DNA of 6,417 bases, taken from the NCBI GenBank assembly GCA_947374535.1, contig CANCCJ010000143.1:1-6417 (forward strand), given 5' to 3'. This DNA comes from Comamonadaceae bacterium. GTDB taxonomy: Bacteria > Pseudomonadota > Gammaproteobacteria > Burkholderiales > Burkholderiaceae. The notes under the pieces are model-generated. The model had not been told where the DNA came from, did not search any database, and saw only the letters and a program-made list of their open reading frames with translations. The stretch's first letter is position 1; the number at the start of each line of letters is the position of its first letter. The position numbers and the translations under genes are program-made. Below are positions 2,993-6,202 of this stretch, piece by piece.

Positions 2993-3874
2993 ATGACCTT
3001 GCAATCCATACACCGCGAGTCCGTGCCCGACATGCCCAACCGCTTAGGACTAGAGGGGATTGAGTTCATCGAGTACGCCACCAGCCGCCCACAGGCGCTG
3101 GGCCAAGTGTTAGAGAACATGGGTTTTCGTCCCGTGGCCCGTCACCGTTCGCGTGAGGTGACCTTGTATCGCCAAGGCGGTATGAACTTGGTGGTCAACG
3201 CCAGCCCTGATGACGCCCGTGTGAGTGCCACAACCGATGGGCAGCCTGTCATTTCTGCGGTGGCCTTTCGCGTGCGCGACGCCTTGCAAGCCCACACCCG
3301 TTGCATGGAGCTGGGCGCATGGAATGTGAGCAGCCAAGCACAAGCGATGGAGTTGCACATCCCCGCCATTCACGGCCCGGGCGGCAGTCGCTTTTACTTT
3401 GTGGACCGTTGGCAAGAGTTCTCAATTTACGACATCGATTTCAAACCCATTCCTACCGTGGACCAGCACCCACAAGCCACCGCGGGTATGAGCTACTTTG
3501 GTGTGGTGCAGTACATCGGTGCAGGTCGCAGTGCGGATTGGTTGGCGTACTTTGAACACATGTTTGATTTCAGCTTTGTGCCCGACGAGCAGCGCTTTGG
3601 CATCTTGCCCAAGGGCAAGTTGATGAAGAGCCCGTGCGGCAACTTCTTGTGGCAACTCATCGAGCCCGATCCTTGGATGGACACAGACGACTCGCCCGAG
3701 TGTTTGCAACGCATTGGCTTGGGTGCCGCCGATGTGGGCGCCGCAGTGACTGCACTCAAAGCGCGTGGCGTTGAGTTTGTCGAGTCCACCCAGCTACACC
3801 CAGAAGACCGTGGTGCGCTCACACGCAGTGCCTTGGGCTCGGTGTCGTTTGAGCTGGTTCACAAAGACAACTGA
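2993..3874 (+). CDS. HPPD-like VOC-superfamily protein with degenerate iron site
   Basis: This 293-residue protein has the two-module vicinal-oxygen-chelate layout of 4-hydroxyphenylpyruvate dioxygenase (HPPD). The N-terminal module is strongly HPPD-like: GIEFIEYA (22-29), MGFRPVARHRS (43-53), LYRQGGMNLVVN (58-69), AFRVRDA (91-97) and IYDIDF (145-150). In the C-terminal catalytic module, the first iron-ligand histidine aligns with F169/G170, the second with R240, and only the glutamate survives as E287 (SFELVHKDN). The protein is roughly 60 residues shorter than bacterial HPPD, lacking an insert before the last strands and the C-terminal helix. It is therefore unlikely to be an HPPD. A similar HPPD-like domain is known fused to the C-terminus of QuiC1-type 3-dehydroshikimate dehydratases; here it is a stand-alone gene 14 bases upstream of the matching dehydratase-like gene. 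A structural or regulatory partner role is inferred. Confidence 0.82.
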   Translation: MTLQSIHRESVPDMPNRLGLEGIEFIEYATSRPQALGQVLENMGFRPVARHRSREVTLYRQGGMNLVVNASPDDARVSATTDGQPVISAVAFRVRDALQAHTRCMELGAWNVSSQAQAMELHIPAIHGPGGSRFYFVDRWQEFSIYDIDFKPIPTVDQHPQATAGMSYFGVVQYIGAGRSADWLAYFEHMFDFSFVPDEQRFGILPKGKLMKSPCGNFLWQLIEPDPWMDTDDSPECLQRIGLGAADVGAAVTALKARGVEFVESTQLHPEDRGALTRSALGSVSFELVHKDN

Positions 3875-3888
3875 ATCAAGGCCACTTT

Positions 3889-4782
3889 ATGAACCTACTC
3901 GACGGTTTCGGTATGGACACCATCACGATGGCGGGCTCGTTAGAGGCCAAACTGTCGGCGATGAAAGACGCAGGCTTCTCGCAAGTCATGCTCATGGCGC
4001 GTGACTTGGTCACCCACCCCGGCGGCGTGCCTGCGGCGGTGGCAGCCGTGCAGGCCAGCGGTTTGCGCCCTACAGGTTTTCAGGTGTTGCGCGACTTCGA
4101 AGGTTTGTCAGGTCACTTGCACGGCTACAAAGTGGACATCGCCAAGTCCATGCTCGAAATGTGCGCCGCCACAGGCAGCAAAGTGTTGTTGGCCTGTTCG
4201 TCCACCTCACGCCACGCCACGGATGATCTCGATCACATCGCCCGCGATTTAAAGAAGCTCGCCATGATGGCCTTGCCCTTGGGGATCAAGGTGGCTTATG
4301 AAGGTTTGTCATGGGGCCGCACGGTCAATGAGTTCACTACCTCGTGGGATGTGGTGTGCCGCGCCGATTGCCCCAACCTTGGCATTGGTTTGGACTCGTT
4401 CCATATTTTTGCCGCCAACACCTCGTTGGACGCCATTGAAGACCTCGACCCTGAAAAGATTTTTTTGGTGCAACTGTCGGACTTTATGTGGCACGAAACC
4501 CCCACCTTTGAAGACCGCATGACCACTGCACGCACTTTCCGCGTGTTTCCAGGCGAGGGCGTGCACAGCGAAGCTTTGGCTGACTTGGTGTTGCGCCTAG
4601 ACCGTATTGGCTATCGCGGCGACTACAGTTTCGAAGTCTTCAATGACGATTACCAACAATTGCCACTTGCCACCGTCGCCGAGCGCGCCCGCAAGAGCGC
4701 CACATGGTTGCACGACAACGTGCTGCACCGCTCAGCGCCGTTGCCTGCTTGGACCCGCACACCCACCCACACACACCCATGA
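3889..4782 (+). CDS. Probable 3-dehydroshikimate dehydratase, TIM-barrel (sugar phosphate isomerase/AP endonuclease 2 fold)
   Basis: This 297-residue, metal-dependent TIM barrel of the xylose-isomerase-like superfamily most resembles the N-terminal domain of QuiC1 dehydroshikimate dehydratase, which converts 3-dehydroshikimate to protocatechuate in the cytoplasm. The likely metal ligands appear in order: E138 (AYEGLSWG), D169 (GLDSFHI, with H172 nearby), Q195 (LVQLSD) and E249 (SFEVFND). This spacing closely matches the Glu-Asp-Gln-Glu set recalled for QuiC1. R210 and PGEG (221-224) add to the family pattern. A CAAGG ribosome site at 3877-3881 supports the ATG. The last dozen residues form a low-complexity Pro/Thr/His tail. 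Related barrels include hydroxypyruvate isomerase and inosose dehydratase/isomerase families; the AroQ and AroE-like neighbours and the HPPD-like gene favour the dehydratase. Confidence 0.82.
   Translation: MNLLDGFGMDTITMAGSLEAKLSAMKDAGFSQVMLMARDLVTHPGGVPAAVAAVQASGLRPTGFQVLRDFEGLSGHLHGYKVDIAKSMLEMCAATGSKVLLACSSTSRHATDDLDHIARDLKKLAMMALPLGIKVAYEGLSWGRTVNEFTTSWDVVCRADCPNLGIGLDSFHIFAANTSLDAIEDLDPEKIFLVQLSDFMWHETPTFEDRMTTARTFRVFPGEGVHSEALADLVLRLDRIGYRGDYSFEVFNDDYQQLPLATVAERARKSATWLHDNVLHRSAPLPAWTRTPTHTHP
4758..4778 (+). repeat. A/C-only low-complexity tract before the aldo/keto reductase start
   Basis: Twenty-one bases consist only of A and C in short CA and CCCA units. They encode the Thr-His-Pro tail of the upstream TIM-barrel protein and occupy the place where the next gene's ribosome site should be. 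No Shine-Dalgarno-like purine run is present, so the next gene probably depends on translational coupling through the ATGA overlap at 4779-4782. Confidence 0.6.
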
Positions 4783-5780
4783 AACAACGTCAACTCGGTC
4801 CCTATCAAGTGTCAGCCATTGGCCTAGGCTGCATGAACCTCAGTCACGCTTACGGTGCACCGCCTGCACCTGAAGTGGGTGAGGCCTTGATTCACCGCGC
4901 CTTAGACCTGGGCGTGACGATGTTTGATACCGCTGCTTTGTATGGTTTTGGCACCAACGAGTCGTTAGTGGGCAAGGCGCTCAAAGCGCATCGCAACGAA
5001 ATTACCTTGTGCAGCAAGGGTGGCATGGCCGGTGTGTCATTCCCCGATGGTGTGAAGCGTGTGATTGATGGTCGCCCAGAGACGCTGCGCAAAAACTGCG
5101 AAGACAGCTTGGCCCGTTTGGGTACCGATGTGATTGACCTGTATTACCTGCACCGTTGGGATAAACAAGTGCCCATCGAAGACAGCGTGGGAGCCCTGAG
5201 CGACCTCGTGCGTGCCGGCAAGGTTCGTGAAATTGGCTTGAGCGAAGTCTCTGCCACCACCTTGCGCAAAGCGCATGCCGTGCACCCCATAGCGGCGGTG
5301 CAAACCGAATACTCGCTGTGGACACGTAACCCTGAAATTGCCGTGCTCAAAGCCTGTGAAGAGTTAGGTACGACCTTTGTGGCCTTCAGTCCCGTGGCGC
5401 GTGGTTTCTTGTGCGGTGAATTGCGTGACGTGGGGACTTTGGCTGCCAACGATATTCGCCGTGCCATGCCGCGTTTCAATGCTGATACCTATGTGGCCAA
5501 TTTACCTTTGCTTGATGCCTACCAATCCATTGCCCGCGAAGTGGGTTGCACGCCGGCACAACTGGCCTTGGCTTGGTTGTTGCACAAAGACAGCAAGCTC
5601 ATCCCGATTCCTGGCACGCAAAACATTCGCCATCTCGAAGACAACATCGCTGCTGCGGATGTGGTGCTGTCGGCAGACCAGATGCAGCGCTTAGAAGCGC
5701 TCATCAATCAGCAGACGGTCAAAGGGCCGCGTTACAACTCGCTCAATGCCTCTGAGGTCGATACCGAAGAATTTGTTTGA
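4779..5780 (+). CDS. Aldo/keto reductase
   Basis: This 333-residue NADPH-type aldo/keto reductase has a TIM-barrel fold and acts in the cytoplasm. The catalytic tetrad is complete: D50 and Y55 (FDTAALYG), K80 (CSKGG) and H125 (YYLHRWD). The C-terminal cofactor-binding segment is present (PGTQNIRHLEDN, 278-289). Length and motifs resemble the AKR13-like group of bacterial reductases (YajO/IolS-style relatives). The start was chosen at the ATG overlapping the previous stop (ATGA), which places the usual beta-hairpin sequence RQLGPYQVSAIGLG at residues 4-17; a longer reading from 4704 would add 25 residues that lie inside the upstream gene. As last gene of the operon it probably interconverts an alcohol and a keto group on a hydroaromatic or side substrate. 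Its exact reaction cannot be told from the sequence. Confidence 0.9.
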   Translation: MKQRQLGPYQVSAIGLGCMNLSHAYGAPPAPEVGEALIHRALDLGVTMFDTAALYGFGTNESLVGKALKAHRNEITLCSKGGMAGVSFPDGVKRVIDGRPETLRKNCEDSLARLGTDVIDLYYLHRWDKQVPIEDSVGALSDLVRAGKVREIGLSEVSATTLRKAHAVHPIAAVQTEYSLWTRNPEIAVLKACEELGTTFVAFSPVARGFLCGELRDVGTLAANDIRRAMPRFNADTYVANLPLLDAYQSIAREVGCTPAQLALAWLLHKDSKLIPIPGTQNIRHLEDNIAAADVVLSADQMQRLEALINQQTVKGPRYNSLNASEVDTEEFV

Positions 5781-5796: not shown

Positions 5797-6183
5797 TCAA
5801 GCCTTCGCGCAACGCTCGGCTTCGGCGCTCATGCCTTCTTTGTCTACCGCAAAGAATCCAGGCATGTTAAATCGGTTCAGGCTAGGGTAGCTAGAGAAAG
5901 CCATCGACCAGTCGCTGAATCGACGTTTCTCCAAAGGACCGCGTGCCAAGAGCTCAATGTCGTAATGACGCGCATCGCGCTGGAGACTGTGCCATAAAGA
6001 CTCAATGGCTTCAGGCTTACCTTCGATGCATTGCACAAACACCTCTTCTGTGTACAGCAAGTGACCAGTAATACCTAGCATGGCATTCTTGGCGCGTGCC
6101 TCACTGAGCATGTTGAAGAGGTGCAAGCTACCTAGGGTATTGGTAGCTTTTGAGCGGTAAAGCAGACGTTCAAGCACGGGCAT
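5797..6183 (-). CDS. BLUF-domain blue-light sensor (short, PixD-like)
   Basis: This 128-residue protein is essentially one BLUF domain, which binds FAD and senses blue light through a hydrogen-bond switch. The key residues are all visible: Y9 (LLYRSKAT), N33 in the NAMLGITGHLLY block, Q51 (FVQCIEG), and W92 and M94 (DWSMAF). They sit at nearly the same positions as in short cyanobacterial PixD-type proteins (Y8, Q50, W91, M93). About 30 residues follow the core, room for the two C-terminal helices and no separate output domain, so it probably signals by protein contact. The ATG at 6183 was preferred over an in-frame TTG at 6201; neither has a clear ribosome site. It faces the operon tail to tail with a 16-base gap and lies 63 bases after a LysR-type gene on the same strand. 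The target is unknown. Confidence 0.93.
   Translation of the reverse strand: MPVLERLLYRSKATNTLGSLHLFNMLSEARAKNAMLGITGHLLYTEEVFVQCIEGKPEAIESLWHSLQRDARHYDIELLARGPLEKRRFSDWSMAFSSYPSLNRFNMPGFFAVDKEGMSAEAERCAKA
6125..6149. repeat. Perfect 8-bp inverted repeat inside the BLUF gene
   Basis: AAGCTACC (6125-6132) and GGTAGCTT (6142-6149) pair perfectly around a 9-base loop. On the plus strand the T run extends to 6151, giving a weak terminator-like shape that could stop antisense read-through from the convergent operon. It lies in early BLUF codons and may be only a coding coincidence. Confidence 0.35.
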
Positions 6184-6202
6184 AAGAAGATGTAAAAACA
6201 AC

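Follow-up and report, generated by a model that had tools for sequence, protein, structure and literature searches.

This study addressed a question raised by a 6,417-nucleotide stretch of DNA from a Comamonadaceae bacterium (GenBank assembly GCA_947374535.1), hereafter the window. Do two adjacent genes, one for a protein resembling 4-hydroxyphenylpyruvate dioxygenase (HPPD) and one for a TIM barrel, together encode a 3-dehydroshikimate dehydratase (DSD), and what does the HPPD-like part do? The HPPD-like open reading frame (ORF) runs on the + strand from an ATG at 2993 to a stop at 3874 and encodes 293 amino acids (aa); in the ORF listing its start is given instead as a TTG at 2981. The barrel ORF follows on the same strand, from an ATG at 3889 to a stop at 4782 (297 aa). 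The HPPD-like gene is upstream, and the spacer (3875-3888) is 14 bases long.

We consider it probable, on balance, that the pair is a two-subunit DSD of a quinate/shikimate catabolic operon, composed of a catalytic barrel and a pseudo-HPPD that likely binds it. The barrel subunit would make protocatechuate from dehydroshikimate at a metal-dependent active site. The HPPD-fold subunit would be a pseudoenzyme that has kept the fold, above all the N-terminal domain, and it would bind the barrel and determine the barrel's oligomerization, its stability or its inhibition by product.

Identity of the barrel and of the HPPD-like protein

The barrel matched Pfam AP_endonuc_2 (9.2e-23). Among PDB sequences the QuiC1-type structure 5HMQ was the top match (2.5e-37, 132 bits), and the fold alignment with it had ∼34% identity. 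QuiC1 active-site residues were identical at 9/10 positions. The exception, S206, is an A in the window, as it is in 10/41 fused proteins. The NCBIfam QuiC model (NF042435) matched the barrel at 7.6e-45 over positions 6-267 with 153.5 bits, which is under the cut-off of 1200 bits because each gene encodes only half of the model's protein; that cut-off was also missed by most of the fused proteins checked.

In the barrel tree, the split barrels were sister to the QuiC1 barrels (SH-aLRT 90). A nine-row paralogue clade (99) fell outside both groups and included L241, a protein matching the hydroxypyruvate isomerase model at 1.6e-95 and the 2-oxo-tetronate isomerase model as well. One long-branched paralogue, L253, was placed inside the split/QuiC1 barrel group. 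Grouping with hydroxypyruvate isomerases had been set beforehand as a test of the original prediction, and the barrel grouped with QuiC1, apart from the L241 clade. Judged by its residues and relatives, the barrel is very probably a DSD, and the sequence and operon context together strongly support protocatechuate as its predicted product.

The HPPD-like protein matched Pfam Glyoxalase_5, the N-terminal domain of HPPD, at 2.6e-45, and it has the HPPD (double VOC) fold by the test applied. Three matches were obtained in the PDB sequence search, two HPPDs first and 5HMQ third. The NCBIfam model 4HPPD (TIGR01263) matched at 1.3e-23 with 84.1 bits and did not reach the curated cut-off of 277. The QuiC model matched at 1.8e-23 over positions 289-469, with 82.9 bits against the cut-off given above.

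The iron ligands of HPPD form a facial triad, which we take to be H161/H240/E322 in the numbering of the Pseudomonas fluorescens enzyme (PfHPPD). At these columns all 50/50 aligned split HPPD-like proteins had G/R/E. Both iron-binding histidines were lost and the glutamate alone was retained in 109/110 split proteins, the remaining one being cut by its contig. H/H/E was found in 21/21 HPPD homologues, while the 41 QuiC1 C-domains had H, mostly H, and E. The absence of both histidines from the split proteins, against H/H/E in HPPDs and nearly all QuiC1 C-domains, is new here. This loss of the metal site was absent from the original prediction and is the most informative feature of the split pair. 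The alignment also stops at PfHPPD residue 328, so that the C-terminal end of HPPD is missing.

Since both histidines are gone, the HPPD-like part is predicted not to be an iron dioxygenase. Loss of 2/3 iron ligands together with the C-terminal end makes HPPD-type oxygen chemistry very unlikely in this subunit, and because the iron site is missing throughout the readable set, an HPPD-type catalytic role appears practically ruled out for this lineage. The best reading is that the HPPD-like part is a structural or regulatory subunit.

A different pairing, in which an IolI- or hydroxypyruvate-isomerase-like enzyme lies beside a true HPPD of tyrosine catabolism, is largely refuted by these results, and we give it very little credence. 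The barrel has the QuiC1 active-site residues and lies beside QuiC1 in the tree, apart from the L241 clade; its neighbor has lost the iron ligands and falls far below the HPPD cut-off, and the operon context is that of quinate.

None of 13 genomes of the same genus, including the window's own (57-100% complete), held an HPPD above the TIGR01263 cut-off. In these genomes the split protein is nonetheless labeled HPPD in databases, probably a misannotation. The analysis suggests that neither database label, “4-hydroxyphenylpyruvate dioxygenase” or “sugar phosphate isomerase/epimerase”, fits this pair. If so, the labels give a distorted prediction of tyrosine and sugar metabolism, and they conceal the use of quinate by bacteria such as Limnohabitans. 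Judging by gene sequences, the conversion of dehydroshikimate to protocatechuate in Limnohabitans and many of its relatives seems to depend on an enzyme encoded by two neighboring genes.

Pairing of the two genes and probable coupling of their products

The constancy of the pair was examined in two sets. One was a sample of 150 GTDB-family genomes, in which HPPD-like and close barrel matches were both called at E < 1e-90. The other consisted of the 80 top-ranking named loci out of 583 confirmed ones, all found through the HPPD-like protein. Some organisms are common to both sets. The short HPPD-like gene was present in 47/150 genomes. Close barrels were present in 46, all among those 47, and each had a partner HPPD-like gene (46/46); in the 47th genome (G022) the barrel has diverged. 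The barrel was downstream and on the same strand in 47/47 genomes, in G074 as a barrel start only, at a contig end. The aligned parts of the two genes were 13-123 bases apart. Barrel matches of the split kind without the HPPD-like gene were limited to one of 46% identity in G020 and a piece of 53 residues in G148. Thirteen genomes had a long frame with a more distant barrel, and 12 of them carried a fused QuiC1-type protein.

Among the named loci, the barrel was directly downstream of the HPPD-like gene in 78/80. The two without it, L147 and L160, stop 1 and 44 bases past the HPPD-like ORF. The two genes overlapped by 4 or 1 bases at 11/77 loci with a called start, and in 0/78 named pairs did both parts occupy one ORF. 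Record titles were nearly all Burkholderiales, with L138 and L168 titled as other phyla (binned genomes) and L182 as Gammaproteobacteria. The two-gene arrangement first noted, with the HPPD-like gene leading by 14 bases, is borne out by the ORF coordinates, and the co-occurrence check proposed with it found the genes as neighbors in both sets, which makes the arrangement no product of chance. The observation holds and is far more general than one window.

Candidate natural HPPD-first fusions were 18 proteins of 329-728 aa among 120 listed matches of a joined query, and 0/18 had both profile matches whole. Full sequences were inspected for 12/18. HPPD similarity in P0121 and P0122 ends at profile columns 272 and 196, respectively, followed by an apparent shift of frame; P0123 and P0125 jump from within the HPPD part to mid-barrel, and P0126 and P0147 have a whole HPPD part followed by a barrel match that stops short. 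These apparent fusions were taken for frameshifted or misjoined assemblies.

The original prediction also suggested that the two parts work together as a complex, and as a whole it is partly supported. Homology of both parts, the reversed order and constant pairing in one operon, with genes that overlap at some loci, are borne out. An interface was not predicted with confidence. The fold model was a single chain built from loci with both genes in frame, the intervening stop being read as a residue. Each half was well folded, and the mean pLDDT of the chain was 87.0. The pTM of 0.60 makes the relative placing of the halves uninformative, and contacts between subunits, which the excerpted text of PMC7442255 describes for a QsuB dimer model, are invisible to single-chain prediction. 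We regard functional coupling of the two proteins as very likely and a physical complex as likely.

Instead of forming a complex with the barrel, the HPPD-like protein might have a separate enzymatic or binding function in this pathway. It could, for instance, be a VOC enzyme free of metal, or bind dehydroshikimate or protocatechuate as a ligand, and the genes would adjoin through the shared pathway. Three residues of the split proteins, Q173, R240 and E287, are invariant and lie in the former active site or next to it, as such a function would have it, and the unpredicted interface also points this way. We nevertheless think this rather unlikely. Metal ligands have been lost, QuiC1 joins the same two folds in one chain, and the barrel is almost always present at the named loci while the other neighbors vary. 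Relatives of the shikimate/quinate dehydrogenase (SDH)-family gene of the window were found in 52 of the 80, of DctP in 40, of DctM in 39, of AroQ in 36 and of the aldo/keto reductase in 16, counts to be read with the fact that many of these loci are cut short.

Besides the missing interface, several observations weigh against a two-subunit DSD. In L266, from another family of the same order, an SDH-family gene separates the HPPD-like and barrel genes, an arrangement that again favors two separate proteins. Four barrels akin to QuiC1 (L097, L098, L267 and L268) had no HPPD-like match in the surrounding stretch. E134, D165, Q191 and E239 were all kept in 66/78 named barrels, but at least one was changed in 10/78 (L142, L146, L167, L173, L177, L194, L196, L200, L202 and L204); in L187 and L195 (2/78) the ligand columns were not readable. 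Identity in the alignments of the changed barrels was 36-68%, which leaves room for misplacement of single columns, and the HPPD-like gene at all ten loci is a consequence of the search route. Two more changed barrels lay beside an HPPD-like gene in the 150-genome sample. Changed barrels in that sample were accompanied by a fused protein in G022 and G052 and lacked one in G017.

The catalytic site has probably been lost from the changed barrels, judging by these columns. A whole HPPD-like gene next to a probably site-less barrel means that the pair may have another role there, and that the partner may not be kept solely for DSD catalysis; it would also suit a separate HPPD-like protein. In 5/10 of these genomes an open frame of 632-767 aa contained a second, QuiC1-like barrel match (33-36% identity). 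Of two unchanged-barrel genomes searched alongside, L141 had a long-frame barrel match and L184 had none. The long frame was confirmed as a fused QuiC1 for L194 only (Comamonas sp. BIGb0124, 5937-9733), where the fused gene directly precedes the split pair with its changed barrel.

The SDH-family gene of L266 (L266:5509-8130) overlaps the barrel gene by 4 bases and, when read from its first ATG, the HPPD-like gene too. A three-protein unit is possible at this locus.

Origin of the HPPD-like partner

The pair was at first described as a split QuiC1. The reading that a QuiC1 gene truly split and was reordered concerns origin only and is compatible with a two-subunit DSD. The sister relationship of split and QuiC1 barrels agrees with fission. 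A careful tree rooted with two Gram-positive HPPDs also joined the split proteins, the QuiC1 C-domains and an odd HPPD (L217), but weakly (84/80) and at a node where long branches meet. In quick trees the split proteins and the HPPDs lay together, opposite the QuiC1 C-domains. Constraining split proteins and HPPDs into one clade cost 1.55 log units and was not rejected (p-AU 0.401). Marker columns were even, four shared by the split proteins with QuiC1 and four with HPPD. The N-domain of the split proteins was nearer to HPPDs (47.5% identity) than to QuiC1 C-domains (32.6%), and the domain order is reversed in the split pair. With the trees disagreeing and the AU test undecided, “split QuiC1” is unproven: its barrel half stood, while the HPPD-like protein was not nested among the QuiC1 C-domains. 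We hold fission to be a tentative explanation.

By the same sequences, an HPPD recruited independently is a comparably likely source. The pair may then be a fifth DSD architecture, a proposal that we likewise advance only tentatively, in which an obligate two-subunit enzyme uses a pseudo-HPPD recruited independently of QuiC1 and the iron site has become an invariant Arg-Glu pair. If this is true, HPPD-fold partners joined DSD barrels on two occasions, in one case as a C-terminal domain and in the other as an upstream gene, and the partner serves assembly or allostery with no oxygen chemistry.

A fused QuiC1-type gene adjoins a free-standing HPPD homologue of 375 aa with H/H/E kept at L290:4476-7612 (reverse-strand ORF coordinates). 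In the trees, this homologue is the odd HPPD on a long branch.

Operon context and comparison with known systems

The window opens with the C-terminal part of the TRAP transporter large permease DctM (1-471, + strand; Pfam DctM 2.4e-36), whose whole gene on the contig encodes 425 aa. It is followed on the + strand by the TRAP solute-binding protein DctP (559-1581; Pfam DctP 3e-90), whose substrate is presumably quinate or shikimate, and by the type II 3-dehydroquinate dehydratase AroQ (1665-2108; DHquinase_II 4.5e-54, TIGR01088 above cut-off). The SDH-family protein (2112-2963, + strand) matched Shikimate_dh_N at 2.7e-13, and the listed NCBIfam SDH models were all under cut-off. Downstream of the pair, an aldo/keto reductase gene (4779-5780, + strand; Aldo_ket_red 1.3e-74) overlaps the barrel gene by four bases (ATGA). 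A short gene for a BLUF blue-light sensor (5797-6201, - strand) converges on the operon and has a relative in 1/80 named loci. A LysR regulator gene follows it, on the strand opposite to the operon.

Contig C7, which carries the window, is 28,805 bases long and belongs to a 2.23 Mb genome that is 77% complete. A protein at the start of C7 was above the cut-off of a class III extradiol dioxygenase beta-subunit model (4.1e-173) and under that of the two-subunit protocatechuate 4,5-dioxygenase model (1.6e-163). The next gene encodes an oxidoreductase with an OxRdtase_C domain, and the contig further carries an IclR-family regulator, a second SDH-family gene and two FAD-dependent oxidoreductases. 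We read the window and its surroundings as a region for conversion of quinate/shikimate to protocatechuate with ring cleavage nearby. The stretch upstream of the window (C7:51-16357, L272) also holds a second PF01261 barrel and a branched-chain-type ABC transporter, and with the window contig it probably forms a larger hydroaromatic catabolic region. For a 379 aa ORF there (L272:10677-11813), no Pfam or NCBIfam model matched within the limits applied.

IolI-type sugar isomerases (1I60) match the barrel at a lower score (59 bits, against 132 for 5HMQ) and have another pathway context. Compared with the HPPDs of P. fluorescens (1CJX) and Pseudomonas putida (9QMF), the partner has G-R-E in place of H-H-E, lacks the C-terminal end and scores far under the HPPD cut-off. 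The single-domain DSDs AsbF (Bacillus) and Qa-4 (fungi) are metal-dependent TIM barrels with DSD activity, as the barrel here would be. The consulted part of PMC9324987 mentions no HPPD-like partner for them, which would set them apart from the split pair. A two-gene DSD was not found described in the open-licence PMC literature at listing level, nor in the consulted parts of PMC7442255 and PMC9324987.

The closest systems are QuiC1 of P. putida (5HMQ) and QsuB of Corynebacterium glutamicum, which have the same two folds and belong to the quinate/shikimate pathway. The role of their HPPD-like half is reported, in the excerpts of PMC7442255 and PMC9324987, as unknown or as proposed oligomerization and stability. 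According to the excerpted PMC7442255, QsuB is mainly an octamer (60%) and its N-domain alone mainly a monomer (80%); without the C-domain, Km fell twofold, kcat fell threefold and the inhibition type changed, and no activity on 3,4-dihydroxybenzoic acid (3,4-DHBA) was found. By analogy with the proposal for the QsuB C-domain, the HPPD-fold subunit most likely has the barrel-binding role set out above. The analogy is limited, since the same excerpts report that oligomerization alone gave no gain in activity and that N-QsuB had a slightly higher activity when assayed at physiological pH. The split pair supplies the unexplained half of QuiC1/QsuB as a separate protein, and whether it acts as a structural or regulatory part can be probed by including or leaving out a single protein instead of truncating a fusion. 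The active-site residues of the barrel are alike in the split and fused systems except at S206. QuiC1 and QsuB are single polypeptides with the barrel first, whereas here there are two genes with the HPPD part first, and this HPPD part is shorter and without both iron-binding histidines.
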